From NCBI GenBank assembly GCA_034336665.1, contig JAPFBE010000013.1, positions 16,223,056 through 16,287,055 on the forward strand: a stretch of 64,000 bases of DNA. Direction: 5' to 3'. This DNA comes from Luscinia megarhynchos. Taxonomy: Eukaryota > Chordata > Aves > Passeriformes > Turdidae. Below, in pieces: positions 10,001 through 47,190 of the stretch (within the stretch, counting starts at the first letter, position 1; each line of letters begins with the position of its first letter). The notes below the pieces were generated by a model, which saw only the letters and a list, made by a program, of their open reading frames with translations, was not told where the DNA came from and did not search any database. The translations under genes were made by a program, and so were the position numbers.

Positions 10001-11815
10001 CTTCCCAAAACTGTAGCTAAAGGAAAATACTGAGAAATAAAAACGTGGTTTTCAGTCACAGAAGCAGGAATGTACATCTTCAAACAATTGTTTAGTCAAA
10101 AGACTGTTTTATCTGAAAACACTAGGCATTTTTAAATCCAACCTGCTAAAAGTTCTTGGTTGGTTTTCTTCAACTTCTTATTCAATTTACCATGACCTAC
10201 ATCCCAGTTCTACTTATGAATATAAAATATGCAGTATTTATGCAGAGAGCTAGTGTATTACTTTTGGGTTTAGACCCAAGTGGGATGAGATAAAGTCATC
10301 TTATCAAATACATAATGGTAAATACACAACATGCCATATCCTAACATGGCCAGATACAAGATGTGTAGGATTTAATAGCTTTTTTGCTGGAGGTGAGTCC
10401 CAGACTTCTGTAGTAGCTCCATGTAGGATCTGATGTTGTTGCTAGAAAAGATGGAATAAATTACTTTTAGAAAAAAAAATTAAAATCACAGAATTAATTT
10501 AAAGATCCTGTCAACAGCTGCAGTCTTCAGATCTGCCAGCTTTTGCAAATAGTTTTCTTCTGGAAGGGCAGCCTCTGAACCAGATTCCTGCATAGGTTGT
10601 GTAGGCTTTCCATTTCAGAACTATCATTAATCAAGAAAAATAGGTTTGAAAAGAATTGTTCTACTTTATCCATAATGGTTTTTGTAACTTTTAGCTTGAT
10701 GCTTCTTTGCTACTACATGGCTTCTCAAAATCTCTGGATGTCAATTCCTGTCACATTAGCATTGGAAAGTTTATTTCAGTCTGTGAGTTAACTAGCCTTG
10801 CTTTGAAATCATAAACATATTTCAGTGGGAGTGCCTGTAAATGTGTTTATGTAAGTGGCTTTAATCCTGTCATACGACAATCATTAGGATTATCTTTCTG
10901 GAGGCATAACTCATCCTGGAGTCTGCCTGGCAGCTGCTGTGATCACAGCCATCAGGCACATGGATGCACAACCAGTAATTAGACACAGTCAGGGTTTTTC
11001 TCTGTGAGGAATTTTTCTGATGGGAAAGACAGTGGGTTTTTTTCAGAAAACTGGGTAAAGTGTCTTCAGGTAAATTTATGATAAGGGTGAAATGACTGCT
11101 ACTATCTACTCATATCAGTATTAGAAATTGTAAGTGAATAACCTGGTGCTTCCTTCCAGTTGCCCAAGGGCACCAGCTGAAGCCTCAGCAGGAGGGAAGG
11201 TAAATTATGGCTTTTAGCAGCTCTCTCCTACTTGGCTTCTGCTCAGAGTGAGTGAAACCAGCGTCACCTTTCAGGTGGAACAGTCCTGGAAGGCTCACTC
11301 TGAATCTCTCCAAGTCAAATTCCTATCTTATAAAAAATAAAAGGTCTTTTCAAAAGCTGCATTTCAAAATGAAACTCATTTTCAAAAAGAAAGGTACTTT
11401 TATGACAATAAAATTCAAAGCATATTTAATTCAAATTAAATTAGAAGTTTACCCATTTTCCTATTGGTGCTTTCAGTCAGACTGACAGATTGCTATTTTA
11501 GTAACTATTTTAAGCACTGAAACTGTATAAGTTTATTTCTACCCACTCCTGTCCATTTTTAAGGACTGCAGTATCTTCACAGGAAGAGTGTTTCACAGGA
11601 ATAATGTGTGTATTGTGCTTGTCCAACTGAATCACTTAGTAATTGTTCCCTAAATCTGACAAAATTTTGTCCCCAAAATGTCCAGTTTTAGCACAATCCT
11701 TAACAATTTCTCTGAGGCACTTTGCAACACTTCATTTCATGTACTCCTGTGCTGATCTATAAATACTGCTTTTACCAACTGCTATGTCTCATTCTCTGTT
11801 TTGTTCTGCTGAGGT
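1032..11815. other. Gene-poor DNA
   Basis: Unique, CpG-poor sequence with only the microsatellite at 3787-3892. The longest frame, on the minus strand at 8233-7805 (142 codons from an ATG), has a His/Thr/Leu-rich composition that is not protein-like. A weak exon-like pair of minus-strand splice signals lies at 1887-1981. Confidence 0.55.
3787..3892. repeat. Compound AT/GT microsatellite
   Basis: Alternating (TA)n, (TG)n and (ATGT)n blocks over about 105 bp. The stretch is interrupted and imperfect, as in an old expanded dinucleotide repeat. An open frame across it is an artefact of the repeat. Confidence 0.9.
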
Positions 11816-11875: not shown

Positions 11876-12198
11876 TTTCTCCTCAGGAATTGCTTTCTGT
11901 CTGCTTTTTAAATCAACTCTATAGGAAGCAGTTTAGCTTCTGTGGACTTTTAAAAGGATATATATACATTCTTTAAGCTCTTAATGAGCTTTCCCAAAAC
12001 ACACTCAAAAAAGAACCCGCCACAACAAAATGACCACATATAAATAACAATTAAACTTGGACAGTAGAAACAAATCTTCTTAAATTTTTCAAGGTATAAA
12101 TTGTGTTTTTACTGAGCTGGGTTATGACACTATAAACCAGTTGTCAGCAGTGCTGTATGGGTCAGTTTTACTTACTGAGGTGCACTCAGGTTCCGAGT

Positions 12199-12318
12199 CT
12201 ACGAAACGCTCTGTTGAGAAACCCCATCGAGCGCGGCTGTCGAGGGATCGAAGGCAAAACGGTCCAAGCCCATGTAGTATTGTGCTGTTTCTCTCAAAGC
12301 TGCCAATGAGTCACTGAT
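12199..12318 (-). CDS. Exon 3: C-terminal half and stop codon
   Basis: The exon carries 39 codons and a TAG stop at 12199-12201. The acceptor is TTTTGATCTGCTTCAG, with a second AG five bases downstream (CAGATCAG). The encoded segment starts ISDSLAALRETAQYYMG and ends GVSQQSVS. About nine CpGs fall within 90 bp, the densest CpG patch in the window. A GTAAGT lies 23 nt after the stop; it may be chance or a donor for a spliced 3' untranslated region. Confidence 0.8.
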   Translation of the reverse strand: MSDSLAALRETAQYYMGLDRFAFDPSTAALDGVSQQSVS

Positions 12319-15300
12319 CTGAAGCAGATCAAAACAGAAAGGAATATTCTGAGCTTTGCTCCTGATTAAATACAGTCTGTGGCTGCCGAGCAGCCTTGCC
12401 CGTGTTGGTAAATCAGAAAAATTTTCCTCCCTTGACCCAAAGGATTTATGCTACACTTGATTCCAGATCTGTGTTTTCTTTTCTCAGGAGGTGGTGCAAG
12501 GGAAGGAAGAGGGTACCTGTTCAGCCACAGTGTATCCCCAGGTGCTCTGGCTGCTGCCTGAGTCCCAGTGGCTCGGATAATACGGTATGTGTCGCTTGAG
12601 CCATACAAACTGATTCGGTGACTCTTCTGTCCGAAAGGGTGCTCCAAGGACACTTGAAACTGAAGCTGATAAATATTTGTGTTATCAGAAAAAATATGCC
12701 ACAATGGGCACTTCAAAAATATGCTTATATCCACAGAAAATGGTTTTGAAGCTGTAGTTTATTTAATAGAAATCAAAGGTGGCCCTACCTTTGATTAGCA
12801 GAAAGAAACTGGTTTTTAGGCCTGGAGTTAATAAAACAAATGCTCTAAATCATTATTTTGCTGTTGAATCTGAAGTAAATAAAGTCACACTCTAATTAAG
12901 GCACTAATTTATTTTAATGCAAAATTTTGTTACAAAAATCCTCTTAGACTGTAATTGCCCTAGTCTCAGGTGTGCTGAAAGCCTAAAGTTTTTTAAAATA
13001 ACACAAACCCTACCTATGAATTAATCTATGGTTCTGAACCTCCTGGCTTATATGTGATATTTATTCTCATTAGTATCAGCATAGAAATTGCATGCTTGGA
13101 AATTACTATCTGAACCGAAGATATTACACTTCCAATCTTGTTATTGCATTGCTTCAGATAGCTTCTGAGGTCACCACAGATGCTGAAGGAGTCTTTGCAG
13201 ATCTTGAAAAACGTATTCTTGACAAGAAAAAGGTCAGAATACCTCTTTAGCTTCATATGAAAAGGCACTCTACAGAAAAACATTCTTTTCTTTTTAGTCT
13301 CGAGTGTTTGAGACATAAATTAATTTTGAGACATAAATTAATGTGGGGCTAAAAGAGTCCAAAACAGCAGGTCAGTCCAAATCACACAATTTTTAATGAA
13401 CCACTGATCAAGGTTGAGCTCAGATTCATCAGCTGAGCTGAGGCCAGTGACTGTAAACATCTGTGCTTCAATTTAGTGAAGTGGGTTTAAATGGACACCT
13501 GAAGGTGACCTGCACATACTTGGAACAGATGGGCCAAGAACTTGAACCCTTTTCTATTATGTCTTAGAGTAGGAGCTCAGCAGGGCAAGCTATCACCTCA
13601 CCCACAGCTCTCTAGTGCCCTGATTCCTGAATTTCTAGGGGGAAAATCTAACTGGGATTAAAAATAAAATGTTTGCTTTCATGAGCAATGTTCAGCTGAA
13701 TCCAGTTCATTTGTAATTATTGCTGTTATTTCCTGATCATCCCCAATATAGTTGTTTTTTAGTATTTTAAATAGAAGAAAATGTTTGCTGAATGCATGTA
13801 GGTAGAAGATACGTGAGCTAGTGTGTTTGCTGCTCCCTTTCACTTTGTTTTTCAGTGACAAAAATGCTTAAAAAGAAAATGAGAAAAGTCTTGGTTATAC
13901 AGTAACAAACAAAAAATAAAGTGAGGGTGGTTGTCATGTTTTGCTCTTAATATAGATGTCAAAGAGTACTTTAGAAAAGTTACTTAGGAAGCAATCACAG
14001 TCCCAGCAGTTCCTCCCTACTTCAGTTTCTTCCTATTCCAAGTTATTATAATCATAAACTGGAGGTAGAAGTTTGAGGGTAGGGAGCTTTCAAGGAATAC
14101 TATCTTCAAAAATGTTACCAGCTCCATGGAAGGAAAGTAAGTTCAGCCATTTGGTGGAAGGCTGGGAAAGAAGAAAATGCATTTCATGCATATGTCTATT
14201 AAGCTGATATACTTGTATTCTAGAGCTGCACAAGAGAAAACAAAGCTTGTGCCAAATTTCAGTATTTCTCTGGCAATTTACTATTTTCCAATAGAAAAAT
14301 ATATAAGCTGTTAATTTCTCTTTAGCAAATTTGGGGTGTTTTTTTAATCAATTAAAATTTTTTTAAGCTCATGAACTGGGATCAGAAATTGACTTATTAA
14401 AAGGCTTCAGTTTTCTTTAAATGTACATATAGTCACTAAGGGCCATTAAACATTATATTTTATCACCAATATGTGCTCTGGAAAAAAAAAAAAAGATCAT
14501 TAAGCAGCTCTTCTTCTTGTGGGTCTTTGGTTAGTTTGTTTTTGTTTGGTTTGGTTTTTTGCTGCCTGCATCTTCAAAAATGAGATTGCCATTCCACTGG
14601 TGGGACAGAGGTTTTGTCTTGGCTACTGCAGTGCAGAGAGCTGCATCTTCAGGATATTATATGTCAATTATTAATATCCAGCCTGCTCTGGCTGCATCTG
14701 TATTCAGTGAGAAATGCCACCCCTAACTATGCTAAGTATTCACTTTGATTGAAGTGCTCTGAGGAGAGCCAGGTATGCCAGCTCTGCTCTTGGCTTTTCT
14801 TGCCACTGTTGACACCCAGCTCTTATTCTTTTCTAGCAGCTATTTCATCTCCTGGGAGCTGTTTTGCAGGACTTGTCCCCAGCTGCTGGGGCACTCCAGA
14901 GCTGCATAAGTACCAAAAGAAAATCAGGTAAGTGCCTTTATACATCACTTAATCCTTCAGACTTATCTTGTTCTCTCTTTGTCTTGCTGTAAAGATCACT
15001 GTAAGTCTCTGAGCATGGCAAATTTCATTCACCTCTGGAAAAACTCCAGAGAGATCATTTCCAGCACAAGCAGAATTAGCCCTGTTGGTCTTTCCCTGTG
15101 GCTGCACAGATAAATATGGAGCACATTTGCTTTTTCTCTGGCACAGCTCAGAGAAAGAAAGGTCTTCACTGAGCTCTAATGTAGACCTAGGGTCAATAGA
15201 CCAGCTGTCTCCATCTGAGTACCCCTCTGAATACAGATTTCATCAAATGAATTATGTCTTGCATCAATCTAAGTTTCTTGCACTGAGTGTAATTGTCCCC

Positions 15301-18300
15301 CTCCTTTTGAACAGCTTAGCAAAATATTGTGGAAGGGTTTGCTTTATAAAGACAGAGTATTCCTGAAGGAGTGCACCTTGCAGAAGATTAGCATACAAAC
15401 CAGGAGACTGGAATTTCAGAGCATCTGATGTGAGACTAGAGGGAGTTAGTAACAGGTGGGTAATGTTAATAAAATGGCTCATAGTGCATAAAGTTGAGCT
15501 GCAAAAAAAAAATGAAGGATTTCAAGTTTTACTGAAACAGTTAACTCACCACGAAGAGCAACCAGGCATATTGTATGGGGATTTTTTTATTCAACACTGT
15601 TTTCCTCCCTTAGATATGTGATTTGAAAAACACTTTTAGATATATATGTCCCAGTGGGAAAATAGGAGGAATGTGTGTGGAGGGTGAACTATTGCTGAGG
15701 TTGTATCAGCTGTTGCCAGTTAATGTTTCCTTCCATCATCTCTTGAAGATTCACTCAGTGTTCTCACGTGAAAAGCAAATTATAGAAAAAATTGGCTGGT
15801 TTTAGGGAAGCAGATGCTTAGCTCATGTGATTTTTGCCTTCAGCAGATAGTTTTGTCTATCCTGTGCACCTAAAGAAATTGTCCAGAGGGAAAACTGTTA
15901 GTAGTCATTATTGCTACCATGCCTTCTAATTTTGGGTTACTATGATCTAAGACAAAACTTGAGGAGAGATGGTGGTACTTGTCAACTTTGTCAAAAAAAA
16001 CAAATGGGCATTTAATCTAGCTTTGAGTATATTAAAAAAACCCAAACCCATGACAAAAGTCTGATTATGAAAAGGCATATCAAATATCTTGGAATGTCAA
16101 AGTAATAGTAAAAAATATCACAGTGTAGCAAGCAAACTGCACTCAAAATAGAAAATCAACCTGGATACATCTTAAGTTACTGTGCTTTAAAATCCCTTCA
16201 TCCTAGACTGGAATGGAAGCATATCTCTCTTTACAAAGATAGATTTCTAGAAAGCAACATATTCAGCTTGGTGCAGCCATAAAATCCTCCCAGGAAGACA
16301 TCTTTTTTCTATCAGCTGAATGTGCAATGATCCACTTCATCACACAGTCAAAAAGGTGAGTATGGGTTTAAGGTTTTACACATTTGCCTGCTAAGGGACC
16401 CATTTAATTGATATACATTTTGTTCTGTAAAAGTTAAGTAGCAAGAGCCATTGTATGCTTAGTGGTCTGGAGAGCTCAGGCAGGCCACCATTTGAACATC
16501 TAATAGAAGAATTTAAAGATAAAAACACAAATCTTCAAACTTGCCTTAGTATAAGAGATGCTTCTTCTTCCCCTCACTACCCCAAAGCCTGTTTTTAGCC
16601 AGATCAGCAGTGTTGTATAAGATAAGAAGAAGCATCTCTAGGCTTTAGGACCAAAATTTTCTCCCTGGTGTATATCTATCACAGGGAAAAGTGGTTTATC
16701 TCTGATTTGTTGTGATATTTACAAAAAAAAAAAACCTGTCAATTATTTAGCAGCACTTCAAACACTCTCTGTGCACACTATTGTTTCTCCCTAGTTCCTG
16801 AAGACTTGTGAGTTTTTGACAACCTGAAAACATATTGCTTAAGTTAATAGCAATGGAATTTCAATGTCAAAAGTTGGCAATTGCTCTAGCTCCTTTCCTT
16901 TAAGTCTAATAACTCCTCTAATTATCAGCTATGGTGACTTTCTGGTCAAAATAGCTCATGGAGGTAAGGCTGCCAGTCTTATCAGCTCTTTAGGACAGAG
17001 CTTGGACAGAGGCTAAACTTGGACAGAGCTAAACTTCAACCTTGCTGAGGTGGCAGCTGCTGACGTGTTGGGAACTTTGAAAAAGTAAATCAAGTCTGCA
17101 GCTCAGGTGTGTTTCCTAAGGCTAGAAATGAGCCAGAATGGGCCACCTCCTGACCATGTTTCAGCTATCTGACTTTCTAAATCTGAATTCACAGAGTCAG
17201 ACCGTAGGATTCAGTTTGATGACTCAGAATACCACAGTGCAATAGCTGAAAGAAACCTGCTTCTCTCCTCACTCAAGTATTTCTCTAGATTATATGGCAT
17301 TCCATGGAAATGAAGTTGTGGTTATCTGTCAGTACACTGCATAAATGGCTGGATTGCAGCAAGGATAGACATGTGGATTCTGCAGGCCACCTCTGGCCCA
17401 GATATCACCATTTTTCTGTTGAAAAGTGCAATTATATTCAAGTCTAACACCTGCATATTTTTTTTCAAATTATTAAAAATTTTTTTTATGCTCATAGGCT
17501 TTGTATTCTGGAGTGTTTGGATGGTAACAAGCCTTGGAATAGAATTAAAGCAGTACAATTTGCTAATTCCTATTGACAGCAAGATTTAAAGTCACCAATT
17601 GTTAAGTGCTTCAACTCTTCCCACATCAATCAGTCTTTGAAATTTTGGCCTCATCTGTTTCTTTTTCAAGCTTGAAGTAAAATAGATTTTATTCTTTGAC
17701 AATTCTTAATTTTATATCACAGGACACAAGAGCTCTCTGGTTCAAGAGATGTCATTAACAATCCTTAGAGCTACAGCATCAGCCTCATTCCCTCACCAGC
17801 AAAGGCAGAGAAGTTACAGATACTTAATGCAGAATTAGCTATTGAACATATTCAATATGTGTGATGATGCCAGGGATCAGGACAGTTTTCAGGTATGGAT
17901 AAACAGCAAGGCAATTTGGAAAAAATCCTAGATAATCCTTGTGAAGGAGCTACTTCTACTGCAGCAAAGTATTAGAAAAAGCCCGAGTCCATTGGTCCAC
18001 TCAGTGGGTCCTGTTGAGATTTCCTTTCTACATCCATATGTGGCAAAACACCCCCATCAGACACCTGAGACACTTCAGCAATTATCTCAGTGCAAAGACA
18101 TCATGCTCCTACCCCATCCCTTGCTGCTGCACTCTCCAGAGGCTACAACAAAATGTCCAGAAAGCCTATTCCCACCTCTGTGACTGTGGTTTACTGTGGG
18201 GAGTGATTTAGAGCAGCTGAATTGAGGGCATGAAGAAGAATAAGGCTCTCATAAGGATCTTATAGTCTGTTTTACTTCACCACCACCTTCATTGTGGCTG

Positions 18301-19691
18301 GAAGGATTCAGAGTTAATGAAAACTGAACTGATTGTGATCAATGAAACTTTTAAGAGCTCATTAAAAACTAGTGATAAGTAGTTCTTCGTGCATTTTGAA
18401 GAATAGAAACCTGGGAAAGAGGATAAACAAGACAAGAAACATAAAGGAGATGAAAGTAAAGTCTTCATAAATGAGGGGTTGGCTGCAAGCTGCTGTGCTC
18501 CCAGCTCAGCCTCAGGTGACACAGTGTTAGAAATTGCCTTCAGTGGAAAGGAGATGAAGTTCAAGAAGATAGGCCCAGGAATTGTCCCAGTTCAACTGCA
18601 GATCAGGAAGGACAAATAAGGGGAAAAGGTTTGTAGGTGAGCTCACACTTGCAGGAGAGACAAAGTCCTTTTCCATCTCCTTATTTTCCTAAAGAGCCTC
18701 ACAGCTGCCAAAACGTGGGTTCATATGGCATGGAAGTGAATTCATGAGAGAGATTATACCTGACTGTGCTCCCAATTGACAAAATCTTTTTCAATAATCC
18801 ACAATTAATCATTGTCTCCCTCATTCTGCCTCAGCTATTCACATCGTATATTTACTGCATGTGTATTGGAGCACTCAAATCTAAGAAATGCTTTTAATGC
18901 ATGCATGTGGATAAACCATCTTGTCAAGATGCAGACAATCATTTGGGAAGTCAGCTGTCACTTACTGCCTGCCTGGTTTGTTTTAATTTTGTGAGAAACA
19001 AATTAATCTTGCAGCATGTGCATCACTGGTCATTCACTGTACGTGTGCTGGTTTGGGAAGAGCATGTGGTAGCCCTGACCCATCCATTTTCCCTCTGGTC
19101 CAAGTTTTATAGGTTGAGTCTTGATTGTAGATGCTGTGATTACACAGTTCTGTGGATGATCAGCATTGAGACAGCCTGAGTGCTTTAAAACAATCAGTCT
19201 CCCTAAGAAATTCAAGTCAGGCATTCAAAAAATCACTTGTGAAATAGATTCTTTAGGGTCCTTATAAATGCATGTGAAATTGTTTCCTACAAACAATAAG
19301 TGTTGAGAGAAGAATAATATTTAGAGAAGATTTCACAGAAACAGCATCAAGCTCTTTCTACAATTTTAACAGTTCAGGAAATCATTCTGTAAGAATGCAT
19401 CCTTCCTTCTTATACATAAGCAGTAAAAGGCTCAAAAAGAGTCACAAGGAGCAGAATTAAACTGTATTTCACAGAATTTGCCATGCAATCTTGTGCTCAC
19501 CCACTCTCCTGTATGTCCCTGCTGCAGTCATTTCCAGTTAATTTTCTGCCATTGGTGCTTTTCTGCTGGTAACACAGCAGTTTTTGCCGGGTGACTATTC
19601 AACAAGCCTGAAGGGACATGAGATAGGATGCCAGGCACTTACCTGTAAGCAGCAGAGCAGACACCAAAATTGGAAACATTTTCAGAGACAT
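12199..19691 (-). CDS. Three-exon gene for a predicted 103-residue secreted protein
   Basis: The CDS joins 19691-19643, 12659-12517 and 12318-12199 on the minus strand. Exon 1 ends one base into a codon, exon 2 supplies the other two, and exon 2 ends on a codon boundary where exon 3 continues to a TAG stop. The product begins MSLKMFPILVSALLLT and reaches a cleavage-like VLG/APF site after residue 22, so it is probably exported through the secretory pathway. The mature part (about 81 residues) has no Cys. It has a Lys-Arg pair at 38-39, an aromatic/Ser-rich stretch at 40-60 and a likely helix at about 61-84 (contains LAALRETAQYYMGLDRF). CpG is strikingly dense in exons 2 and 3 compared with the flanks, as expected for constrained coding DNA. 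I do not recognise the family. Human C3orf85-like small secreted proteins come to mind, but that is an unverified recollection. The gene model is well supported; the function is unknown. Confidence 0.8.
12517..12659 (-). CDS. Exon 2: end of signal peptide and N-terminal mature chain
   Basis: The exon is 143 nt. Its acceptor is ATCAGCTTCAG and its donor is CAG followed by GTACCC, a weaker but usable donor. In the chosen frame it encodes 47 residues from SSVLGAPF to YTVAEQ, completing the leader and opening the mature protein. Five CpGs lie in the exon. A second frame is also open throughout, but it would not continue the leader and its first codon would not complete exon 1. The chosen frame fits the phases on both sides. 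Confidence 0.8.
12660..19642 (-). other. Intron 1 of the secreted-protein gene
   Basis: About 7 kb of AT-rich sequence bounded by GTAAGT and the exon 2 acceptor. No further minus-strand exon is needed, because the phases of exons 1 and 2 already match. On the plus strand it holds three exon-like stretches (13080-13250, 14837-14927, 16294-16355), listed separately. No clear mobile element was seen in it. Confidence 0.6.
14837..14927 (+). other. Candidate exon, plus strand, inside intron 1
   Basis: A 91-bp stretch flanked by a strong acceptor (TTATTCTTTTCTAG) and a near-perfect donor (AATCAG then GTAAGTG). Two of three frames are open through it; neither peptide was recognised. It lies antisense inside intron 1 of the secreted-protein gene. 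It could be an exon of an antisense noncoding RNA, or a pseudo-exon. Confidence 0.3.
19643..19691 (-). CDS. Exon 1: start codon and signal peptide
   Basis: The coding part is 49 nt, 16 codons plus one base. The ATG lies in a favourable GCCATGT context. The 16 residues are Met, Ser, Leu, Lys and then a hydrophobic run, typical of a secretory leader. The exon ends CTTACAG followed by a near-consensus GTAAGT donor at 19642-19637. A TATA box 58 bp upstream of the ATG implies a short 5' untranslated region of roughly 25-30 nt. Its phase matches exon 2, 7 kb away, and the join completes the signal peptide. Confidence 0.78.
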
Positions 19692-19742
19692 GGCAAATTA
19701 TTCAGAAAGGGTTTCCTTTGTAAAGTGAAGAGAGTGATACAG

Positions 19743-19749
19743 TTTTATA
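19743..19749 (-). promoter_or_regulatory. TATA box of the secreted-protein gene
   Basis: The minus strand reads TATAAAA, 58 bp upstream of the ATG in exon 1. A start site 25-30 bp downstream would fall near 19718-19724, giving a short leader before the GCCATGT start context. A second, weaker TTATAAA lies about 25 bp further upstream. A TATA promoter without a CpG island suggests tissue-restricted expression, which is inference. Confidence 0.55.
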
Positions 19750-20394
19750 CTTTGCTATCTTCGGGTTTATAAATCATTTACCAGATACGTGTAAAGGATT
19801 GGTTCAGGCAGAGGGCAGGGTACAATGCTTAGTTCAGATTTGTCCTGTGTGGCTCTGTTGGTACACTTTGGACTTTGCAAGCTGAGCCTCTAATGAGCCA
19901 TCATGGCTCATTATTGTCTGGATGCATTTACTTCTTTATAAGTTCAATGATGCAAAACAGCAAACTGGGCTTGTTCTAGGAGCATTTGACTAGTAAACTT
20001 CAGTCTTTTGCATGACTATTTGCCCCTCATCCTGGTGATAGGCACAAGTAGTTTAGAGTTTGGTGTGAATACCAATGGTGTTTGAATCCACCTGCTCTGA
20101 GAGCAGTGCCAGAGTATCCCATATATTTCAGCTGCATGCTGCTTGAGTTAAGGAAATAAATGTATGAAAAGATTGATTGAAAAAGCACTAAGCAGGGAAG
20201 GAGGGAAGAAATCTGGTTTCTGACCTGAACCAGGGTGACCTGTTGCCTCCTGCTGGTGTTAGGACTCTGTAATGTGGGACACGAGGAGTTCATGCTTCAC
20301 CTTTCCCACCTGCCCAGTTACCTGCTGCCTTTTGACACACAACTCACCTGTTGGCAGCAGCAGTGGTGCTGCAGAGCAGTTTATCTGCTTCAGC

Positions 20395-20530
20395 TCGCCT
20401 CCAGGGGCGATAAGGGAGCGGGGAGAGGCTGAGCTGTGTCCCACGCTGTGTCCGTGGCACAGGCACTCCCAGCTCCCACGTCAGGCATCACACCTGCTGA
20501 CGTTACAGGGCAGGGAGCAGACTCCGTGTG
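20395..20530. promoter_or_regulatory. CpG-enriched block, candidate promoter or enhancer
   Basis: About eight CpGs fall in 135 bp of locally GC-rich sequence, against a background that often has none per 100 bp. It contains two oppositely oriented TGACGT half-sites (about 20477-20483 and 20498-20503), the core of CREB/ATF sites. On the minus strand it is followed at 20348 by a strong splice donor, CAACAG then GTGAGTTG. It sits about 0.7 kb upstream of the TATA promoter at 19749, so it could be an upstream promoter with a noncoding first exon, or an enhancer. No transcript evidence is available. Confidence 0.35.
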
Positions 20531-23500
20531 ATGGGCAGCAGCCCTTCATCCTCACAGACAGACACTGCATGCAGTCTGCTGGGAAGCAAAAGAGCGTCTA
20601 GTTATGTGGTTACAAAGCTTAATAGATTTTTGTTACACACAGGTGGGCTGGAGGGAATGCTGCTGAACAGCAGGTCTAACATTGCAATCCTTAACCTTGC
20701 TGTAGGTCATGTCACAAATTCAGTATTATTTGAGTATTGTTCTAAAAAAAAAAATAAATTAATCCATCCACCCCAGATAGCAAATTAAGTATGGAGGCAG
20801 GTGTTCTGCATTCTGATGCCACATCAGTAACAAATATTAATTATCCAAACTTACGATCAGTTTCCCCACCTCTGAGCTACTACTCTAAATGTTAGATGTC
20901 AGCTTTCTTGTGGACTAGAAAAAATGTATAATGACTGGGATATTTGCTAATAGGTGACACAGAGCTCTCCAGAACAGTAGATCCCCCAGAAATAAGTTCC
21001 AGGAAAGCATACAAGTTATCCTTATACCTCACAAACTTTGTGGGCCATTGCCTCTAACCTTTTCCACACTTTTCTCTTAAATGGGCTGGCCTTTCTATTG
21101 GAGATTTCCTCACAGTTCCTGATACAGTGACTGGAAGAACATGGTGGAGTGTTATTTTACATTTATTGCAGTTATGTCTTCTTTAATGTGCAGCCTGCTC
21201 ACAGAGACCACTGCTAGTGATATGGCACAGGTGGAGAAACAAGAACAGCCAGTAATTGATCACAGGGAGGCATGCTGGACTGGCAACAAAGACCAAGTCA
21301 CCTACTCCTCCTATTTCATCTTAGGAAGCAAGAGGAAGAGATGAGAATGGTTTTTCAGGAACAGGAGTTGAAGAAGTGGTAAAATAGTTAAAGGCCATTG
21401 ATCCCAACTGATCCTGAGTAATCTAAGTCCAGGCTCCCAGAATCTAAAAATAGCCTTGCTCCCTTGATTTCCAAATAAAACCTGGAGAATATGACTTGTC
21501 TATATCCTTTACTGATGAAGCCTTGAGTCTGCTATAGGAAAAATCCTCTCTGAGAGGCACACAATATCTTCTGGTAGGGTCACAAAACATGATGGGAGTG
21601 CTGCAATGCCTGGACTTGGCTCTGAGTCCAGAACACAAGGCTTTCTCTGCTGTAGAGTGGAGCAGTGGTCAGCCAGAGTAGGCTATGATACAAGATCTGG
21701 GAAGCAGCTAAATTACAGATAGCATGTCCCCTAGAACATAGAGATCCATGGCATCTGAACACTCCTCCAGTTCTCCTTTGTTTCATCCTCTATCCTGCCC
21801 TGTTTGTTTCTTTGATTCAGGCCTTGCTCTTGGCTCTGACTTGTGCAGGCTGCCCAGCTCTGCATTCTTCCCCTGACACGTCCTTCCTTCTTGTTGTGCA
21901 CTTTGCAATTTCACATAAAATGACGTTATGCCCATAAAACCCAACATCTTTAGACTGAAGAATTTATAAGTCTGTAATGAGGAGAGTGGTTCTCCCTTTC
22001 CTCCTTCCTTTGGTGTCTTGTTTCCCCTACCCACGAGGGGTGTTCAGCTCTGAGGTTCACTCCCCCGCTGCCTCCTACCCCAGTCCTGCTCTTGCCAAGT
22101 CTCACTTCTGCTCACAATAGCCAGTTTTTCCTGAAGCCCTGCAATGTATATGTAATTTGGGGCTTGCATATGCCCTCCTGGCTCACATGCAAAAATTTCC
22201 AGAAGACATATGAGTTCTTAGCAGCTCTTTGAGGGCATTATATTGGCAATCTGGATATCACTAAAAACCATGAAAAGCATGAATTTATCCATTGAATGCA
22301 AAATTTTAGCTGTTAATCACTAACAGATATGCAGGCTGCAATTTTTTTGAAGATTTGTTACTTGGCCCAGTGGCTGAAATTTTCGTATGGAGAAATGAAT
22401 CATTGTATTATTTTCTTATGATGCCCTCCCTTTCCTGTCAGACTTCTATTCCCTACTTTAAAGCAGGGAAAGCTTAGTCAAAGGAGTTGTCATGAGAATA
22501 TTCAGTGAAAATTCAACTTCCCCCATACATCCTTATCTCATTTACAGAAATTATCAAGATACTGGCTAAAGTGGTTCCAAAAATTTCAGCTTGATGCAGA
22601 TATCTGAAAATAAAAAAACAGAAAAACCAAACAATTCAGACCAAATTATAAAAGTTTAAAAGAGTTATAGATGAGTGAAAGTAGGATTATCTGAAAGGAC
22701 GTTTTATGCAATCTACAATGCTACCAGACTTACCAATAAGGTCTAAGGCAGACTTCAAACATCAGAACTCTGGTAGGGAAAGGTCAGACCTTTTTTCCTT
22801 TCACATTTCATAACCTTAGACAGTACGTCACCATTTCAGGGGAAAGATCTGTGTTCTTCCCATAATAGTATCAATTATTTTTCTTTAAGGAAAAAGAGTA
22901 AAGCCCCACACCTTAGCTGATTATAAATGAAACAGTTTTAGTAAAAGAAAGATAAAAAGAGGTTGGACTCATAAACATCCTGAGGAAGTTGATGGTGACT
23001 GGCTATACAATGTCTTCAGCTGCTTGAATTTTTTATGTATTTTTCACAGGTGGATCAATAGTAAAATATTTGAGAGGGTAGGTAAGTATCCTAAGATTAC
23101 TTGTTGCTCCAAGTTGATTGAAAGCAGGTAACATAGAAAGTTATTGGAAAGGAGAAGGCAGGTAGGAAATCTTAGCTGGTTGGGAACAAAAAGCTGAACA
23201 ACTTGAGCTGGAAAATCCATATTCTTTTTCTTCTTAAGCACCAGCTTCTTGTCTGTCTAGGAACTTAATTCTTTTGGTTCAATATCACCAGCTAAGTATA
23301 ATGCTAATCTATAAGATTTTGTAAACCACTATGTAACTGTTGAAAAATGTAATCTTCTGATGTATTTATTTGAAATTTCTCATTTGTTTTAGCTTGTCTA
23401 ACACTTACCAGTTCTCTTTGTTCATCTCTAATACATCTTTGATTTAAGTAGATATGCCAACACCAGTGTTTAACTTCAGGTTTTGTGTATCTGAAAATGC

Positions 23501-33625: not shown

Positions 33626-33778
33626 ATAGAATAGAATAGAATAGAATAGAATAGAATAGAATAGAATAGAATAGAATAGAATAGAATAGAATAGAATAGA
33701 ATAGAATAGAATAGAATAGAATAGAATAGAATAGAATAGAATAGAATAGAATAGAATAGAATAGAATAGAATAGAATA
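33626..33778. repeat. (ATAGA)n pentanucleotide microsatellite, about 30 units
   Basis: About 150 bp of uninterrupted ATAGA units with no visible variant until the end. Such ATAGA arrays are common in bird genomes. The perfect periodicity implies recent expansion and likely length polymorphism. Confidence 0.97.
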
Positions 33779-43206: not shown

Positions 43207-43243
43207 AGATAGATAGATAGATAGATGAATGGGTGGATGGATG

Positions 43244-43325
<82 letters not shown>
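43207..43325. repeat. (AGAT)n tetranucleotide microsatellite
   Basis: A short AGAT run, then GAATGGGTGGATGGATGG variants, then about 20 pure AGAT units. On the minus strand it reads as a Tyr-Leu-Ser-Ile repeat, a translation artefact. The variant block suggests an older repeat with one expanding flank. Confidence 0.97.
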
Positions 43326-46994: not shown

Positions 46995-47190
46995 CACCAG
47001 TCAGCTCCATGGAACAGGAGCCTCCAGGCACCTCCAAGGAACAGGAGCTTCCAGTCAGCTCCAGCTCCATGGAACAGGTGCCTCCAGGCAGCTCCATGGA
47101 ACAGGAGCCTCCAGGCAGCTCCAGCTCCAAGGAACAGGTGCCTCCAGGCAGCTCCAGCTCCATGGAACAGGTGCCTCCAGGCAGCTCCTG
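46995..47190. repeat. GC-rich minisatellite with alternating 27- and 33-bp units
   Basis: Units begin GGAACAGG(A/T)GCCTCCAGG and end in one or two AGCTCC words: 47011-47037 (27), 47038-47070 (33), 47071-47097 (27), 47098-47130 (33), 47131-47163 (33), then a partial unit. The 27+33 pair makes a 60-bp higher-order unit. All lengths are multiples of three, so open frames run through on both strands, including a plus-strand frame with the motif SSSMEQVPPG. No start or splice context supports translation, though a CAG/GTGAAA donor-like site follows at 47210. Confidence 0.92.

Follow-up and report, generated by a model that had tools for sequence, protein, structure and literature searches.

This locus raises the question of whether three short minus-strand exons, found in a 64-kb stretch of songbird DNA (the window, by which the whole stretch analysed is meant), form a real gene for a small secreted protein and, if they do, which gene it is, whether they are the whole of it, and what its product may do. 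A preliminary description, made from the letters alone, had left two options for the family, namely an undescribed gene or an ortholog of an uncharacterised vertebrate ORF.

Identity of the gene

The three-exon gene is almost certainly the songbird copy of C3orf85, an annotated but uncharacterised vertebrate gene, to judge from protein comparison. When the translated join was searched against 5.8 billion proteins, 45 relatives were recovered at E up to 1, of which 37 carry the name C3orf85, the top match being the 'uncharacterized protein C3orf85 homolog' of Oenanthe melanoleuca (E 3.2e-57, 93% identity, 99% covered). A profile search found 110 proteins at E up to 0.01, and a wider one 192 at E up to 10 (taxa from the best 120 of 192), with relatives in marsupials, reptiles, a caecilian, lungfish, coelacanth, gar, bowfin, sturgeon and many teleosts. 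These vertebrate-wide relatives, together with the matches named C3orf85, point to an annotated uncharacterised gene and not to a new family, so that of the two earlier options the second is borne out and the first falls away, the gene being already annotated in many birds. No row among the matches listed from the product search and the two profile searches was named as human, and the assignment to human C3orf85 therefore follows the names given by the sources. The Pfam scan of the window product gave no match.

The window product shares with vertebrate C3orf85 the signal peptide, the APF start, the dibasic site and the WD, WG and YYM motifs, and the splice phases of the gene are also the same. 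It differs from the family in having Trp for the P4 Arg and Leu for Trp71, in using an upstream exon-2 acceptor, and in ending with a read-through tail in place of the exon-4 helix. What was already known is C3orf85 as an annotated gene; the additions made here concern a songbird clade, namely its overlooked fourth exon, shifted acceptor, decayed donor and altered convertase site. C3orf85 is a vertebrate gene without known function, mentioned in the excerpts of the literature that were available as an item of expression data or gene lists, and the family alignment provides it with a testable anatomy consisting of a signal peptide, a convertase site and a two-helix chain.

Exon structure, splice signals and promoter

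The join of exon 1 (ATG at 19691, to 19643), exon 2 (12659-12517) and exon 3 (12318-12199, ending in TAG) was reproduced in phase and encodes 103 aa. Chance is excluded as an explanation, since the homology spans 99% of the product (E 3.2e-57). The leader is indeed completed across the 7-kb intron, with the signal peptide coming from exon 1 and the start of exon 2. The features of the gene are collected in Table 1.

Table 1. Features of the C3orf85 gene and its surroundings (window coordinates; the slash marks a splice or cleavage point)
Feature	Position	Strand	Basis
TATA-like box, starts 58 nt 5' of ATG	19744..19749	-	consensus match only
Coding exon 1: ATG and most of signal peptide, donor CAG/GTAAGT	19643..19691	-	join, relatives
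Intron 1, about 7 kb	12666..19642	-	join, tblastn
Coding exon 2: signal peptide end, propeptide, dibasic WLKR/H	12517..12665	-	join, tblastn, relatives
Intron 2	12319..12516	-	join
Coding exon 3, read-through form ending in TAG	12199..12318	-	join, relatives, donor scores
Part of exon 3 common to relatives	12318-12233	-	relatives
Exon-3 part removable as intron in other birds	12232-12199	-	relatives
Apparently decayed exon-3 donor, CGC/GCTCGA	12227..12235	-	donor score -8.0 bits
Donor-like TCA/GTAAGT past TAG, intron start 12175	12170..12178	-	5.2 bits, rank 177/2900
Ancestral coding exon 4, C-terminal helix NNIRSYMELLQKSGTHLQQKSY, TAA; acceptor TTTTCTAG	10372..10441	-	tblastn, sequence

The TATA box reported earlier turned out to be one of two TATA-like boxes, 58 and 80 nt 5' of the ATG (the second from 19771; both by consensus match only), and the start codon stands in the context GCCATGT. 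With a simple donor matrix, whose base frequencies were taken from general knowledge, the exon-1 donor ranks first among the 2900 GT sites on the minus strand, and the exon-2 donor (CAG/GTACCC) only 167th.

The CpG enrichment noticed in exons 2 and 3 was also recovered: they hold 5 and 8 CpG respectively, against 194 in the whole 64-kb window, where observed/expected is 0.08, and exon 1 holds none. Four neighbourhoods of the window reach at least 4 CpG per 150 bases, two of them being exons 2 and 3. In exon 3 (12199-12318) observed/expected is 1.0, compared with 0.08 for the window, several of these CpGs being close to the decayed donor. Another of the four CpG-dense stretches, at 20270-20628 (up to 8 per 150 bases), is located 580-940 bases 5' of the start codon and might be regulatory, repetitive or exonic in nature.

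Evidence for splicing comes from relatives. Four proteins, P0002, P0003, P0004 and P0006, are each encoded on 'lgn' contigs of 1180 to 1942 nt by one uninterrupted frame (101 to 105 aa) that spans exons 1-3 and includes the read-through tail; because intron 1 is about 7 kb long in the window, contigs of this length are most simply read as spliced transcripts. The frame of P0045, on a contig of 14,003 nt, instead continues from exon 2, there read in a different frame, across intron 2 into exon 3, as expected of unspliced DNA.

Exon-2 acceptor

Exon 2 as first described is real, but its start needs correction. The acceptor region reads TATCAG/CTTCAG/TTTCAA/GTG, in which the first AG puts the start of the exon at 12665 (105 aa) and the next, 6 nt downstream, at 12659 (103 aa), the position chosen in the preliminary description. 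The former is probably the one used, since Oenanthe P0001 as well as P0002, P0003, P0004 and P0006 read TASVSSVLG, which requires the first AG. Furthermore, the residues of this region are missing from the proteins of fish and turtles, of most lizards and of some birds, which look as though they were spliced at a third acceptor directly ahead of GTG; the window has CAA at that place.

Signal peptide and probable convertase site

Read from its start, the encoded protein has a signal peptide, then a short propeptide whose last residues form a conserved dibasic site, and after that a chain free of cysteine. Both the signal peptide and the absence of Cys, claimed from the outset, are seen in the sequence, and the signal peptide is shared with the C3orf85 family. 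The mature chain of 81 residues fares differently: cleavage at the conserved dibasic site within it would shorten it to 64 residues.

The dibasic site is mostly RLKR/Q or RLKR/H in the family and WLKR/H in the window. A motif fixing Arg at P1 was matched by 133 of the 164 collected proteins (the other 31 are outside the counts); among these, K or R occupies P2 in 133/133 and Arg P4 in 118/133, and the residue after the site is Gln in 97 and His in 34, 131 together. Arg at P4 combined with a dibasic pair constitutes the furin-type pattern, and a Gln left at the N-terminus could become pyroglutamate. The window retains LKR, with Trp for the P4 Arg, and WLKR/H is common to the window, Oenanthe, Cinclus, P0002 and P0003. 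The P4 Arg is also missing in some sea turtles, geckos, other lizards and an owlet-nightjar, so its loss is not unique to this group. It is likely that the C3orf85 product is secreted and cut at LKR.

The fourth exon and the read-through tail

The gene does contain the three exons described, but they do not make up the whole of it, given that most relatives have four coding exons, the fourth encoding a C-terminal helix (in most full-length relatives a sequence such as DNIRSYMDMLQQSGTHLQQQ). By tblastn of the relatives' tails against the window, exon 4 was located with E values of 3e-9, 3e-9, 8e-9 and 4e-5 (four tails among the matches listed); it sits beyond the coordinates of the preliminary description, with its acceptor and open frame kept. 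Judging from the donor position of exon 3, it is probably no longer joined in frame. This position holds GC at 12232-12231 in the window, and the corresponding donors of other birds, derived from protein isoforms and not from DNA, would be AAG/GTATGA in many non-passerines and AGT/GTATGA in many passerines. The simple matrix gives 7.7 bits for the first, 2.1 for the second and -8.0 for the CGC/GCTCGA of the window. With the donor position at this GC, the TAG falls within an intron that other birds can splice out: it is indeed an in-frame stop, as was described, but one reached by reading past the exon-3 donor of other birds. There are thus good grounds to believe that this donor was lost in this species, and the C-terminal helix cut off with it.

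A similar read-through tail is annotated in Aquila (P0018), parrots (P0021 and P0026) and a whydah (P0009), so that reading through looks like an older alternative end. The tail is not universal: it is absent in P0109, whose preceding residues match pigeon P0040, and quail P0027 ends differently. Splicing from the donor-like site past the TAG (Table 1) might attach exon 4 to the transcript as part of the 3' UTR. Exon 4 is identical to that of Cinclus in 20/20 residues before an indel, compared with 68/78 for exons 2-3; being closer to Cinclus than the latter, it is unlike an exon long out of use, which counts against its complete loss.

Conservation in the songbird clade

In a tree of 28 rows, among which P0008 and P0012 include their exon-4 tails, the window pairs with Oenanthe (support 94/93; 97% identity over 94 columns of the tree alignment), within a five-row clade that includes the dipper Cinclus (support 99/97). 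The source of the window is accordingly most likely a bird close to the chats. To gauge conservation, 52 non-passerine rows were used to define 39 columns with conservation of 85% or more, both rows and columns being our own choice. The window deviates in 13 of these columns, three within the replaced tail, Oenanthe, P0002 and P0003 in 10, and Cinclus in 9; the other 17 passerine rows deviate in 5 to 10 and the 16 listed non-passerine birds in 0 to 7. By number of deviations, the clade therefore does not go beyond other passerines.

In the sequences compared, the clade is set apart by the place of its changes: Trp71, R38W and A33P. Column 71, in the first long helix, is Trp in 52/52 of the chosen non-passerine rows and Leu in all five clade rows (window, P0001, P0002, P0003, P0056), a difference inside the C3orf85 family given the homology; R38W and A33P are likewise common to all five. 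The clade can be viewed as a natural experiment, one that apparently removed both the second helix and the complete convertase motif.

Structure and candidate protein relatives

The structure model led by gar P0074, with 83 rows (mean pLDDT 78.7, pTM 0.54), places long helices at 60-85 and at 88-114, and its block pLDDT is 92-95 over residues 71-110; the gar protein is thus confidently predicted to be a two-helix hairpin. The second helix comes mostly from exon 4, so the three-exon form would be without most of it. The bird-led model was poor, and the structure searches returned only generic two-helix hairpins among the matches listed. Amphipathicity was mixed, 7% of shuffles scoring as high for the window helix and 32% for the gar second helix.

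As regards possible relatives, DUF4543 (PF15076), which we take to be the C17orf67 family, weakly but repeatedly matched the segment of C3orf85 that covers the propeptide and the dibasic site, in 7/10 and 24/83 relatives, with a best E of 0.00086. The C3orf85 relatives stayed below its cut-off of 27 bits (at most 18.8 among the scores listed), and the window product itself had no match to it in the Pfam scan; the family is possibly a paralogue and is treated here as a lead. The small exchangeable apolipoproteins and serum amyloid A resemble C3orf85 in being small, apparently secreted and helical, with gut-linked expression. The sturgeon relative P0082 bears the UniRef name 'Serum amyloid A protein', its sole Pfam match being a weak one to DUF4543. 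No Pfam apolipoprotein or serum amyloid A family was matched by the product, nor was one present among the 25 families from 50 relatives or in the scan of ten relatives; of the 30 families from the scan of 83 relatives, 25 were listed.

Expression and proposed function

In the excerpts available from published data, C3orf85 counts among the ten leading marker genes for a cluster of human proximal enterocytes (PMC11633960), and belongs to 152 genes raised in a comparison of Barrett's oesophagus, a list that also contains APOB, MTTP, FABP1, FABP2, APOA1, APOA4, APOC3 and CDX2 (PMC11675858). Moreover, in small-bowel carcinoids its expression is lower in metastases than in primary tumours (adjusted p 0.066; PMC10632590, which gives the human band as 3q13.13), and in pigs its level in the caecum is higher on diets with less protein (PMC12754465). 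A comparison of catfish names it as a candidate gene (PMC7859520), and it is part of a kidney-cancer feature list (PMC9103317). Our own reading is that absorptive enterocytes would secrete C3orf85 as a helical polypeptide processed by a convertase.

The following explanation can be proposed. The product would enter the secretory route of absorptive gut cells, lose its leader to signal peptidase near VLG, then be cut after LKR by a proprotein convertase, and leave these cells as a small helical polypeptide. By analogy with a small apolipoprotein it might then act at a lipid surface, which is the least certain step and a tentative one. In the clade, the exon-3 donor would have decayed and a short read-through tail replaced the C-terminal helix. 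Taken as a whole (C3orf85 of a songbird near wheatears, secreted, processed, gut-derived, acting at a lipid surface, its C-terminal helix replaced), this explanation is somewhat probable. Among chats and allied birds, a secreted gut protein that is otherwise conserved from fish to birds may have been rebuilt stepwise, by loss of the P4 Arg, change of the invariant Trp and decay of the donor, into a one-helix product of changed role, the read-through tail, an alternative isoform elsewhere, becoming the sole C-terminus; this further reading is speculative.

Against the lipid-surface step stand the lack of a match to the Pfam apolipoprotein and serum amyloid A families within the scope given above, the mixed amphipathicity, and the fact that the gene lists containing C3orf85, in the excerpts available, mark enterocytes generally and not lipid export. 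It is weighed against a peptide-hormone precursor, in which a convertase cut at LKR would free a ligand for a receptor rather than for lipid. Such a precursor would agree with the conserved dibasic site followed by Gln (97/133) or His (34/133), the Gln being able to turn into pyroglutamate once N-terminal, but a gut peptide would be expected to be shorter than the conserved chain past the site (about 64-80 residues), the excerpts point to the absorptive enterocyte and not to an endocrine cell, and no receptor is known. The hormone reading is accordingly judged doubtful, and lipid action is narrowly favoured over it.

Two other alternatives concern the gene itself. The four-exon protein might still be made, through the GC donor at 12232 or a cryptic donor, the three-exon form being one isoform; exon 4 with its acceptor, its open frame and its 20/20 residues shared with Cinclus would fit, as would the annotation of both forms in other birds. 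The -8.0 bits of CGC/GCTCGA tell against it, as does the finding that both Oenanthe (by annotation) and P0002 (on a short contig) finish with the read-through tail ALDG..., and we regard it as unlikely. A still less probable alternative, indeed an improbable one, is that the gene is decaying in the songbird clade and its protein has little function. The loss of R38, of W71 (present in 52/52 chosen non-passerine rows) and of the exon-3 donor would be expected of decay, but each of the three exons retains an open frame and functional splice signals, the identity to Oenanthe reaches 97% over 94 columns, and outside the tail the deviations of the clade are not above those of every other passerine, Empidonax P0038 being equal.

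Repeats elsewhere in the window

Three tandem repeats were observed apart from the gene. A minisatellite at 46997-47188 is built of units of about 27-33 and 60 bases, the 60-base unit occurring three times with 88% matches, and leaves several frames open on both strands. An ATAGA repeat at 33626-33778 is perfect over 30.6 copies, and an AGAT repeat at 43207-43325 has 29.8 copies with 94% matches.
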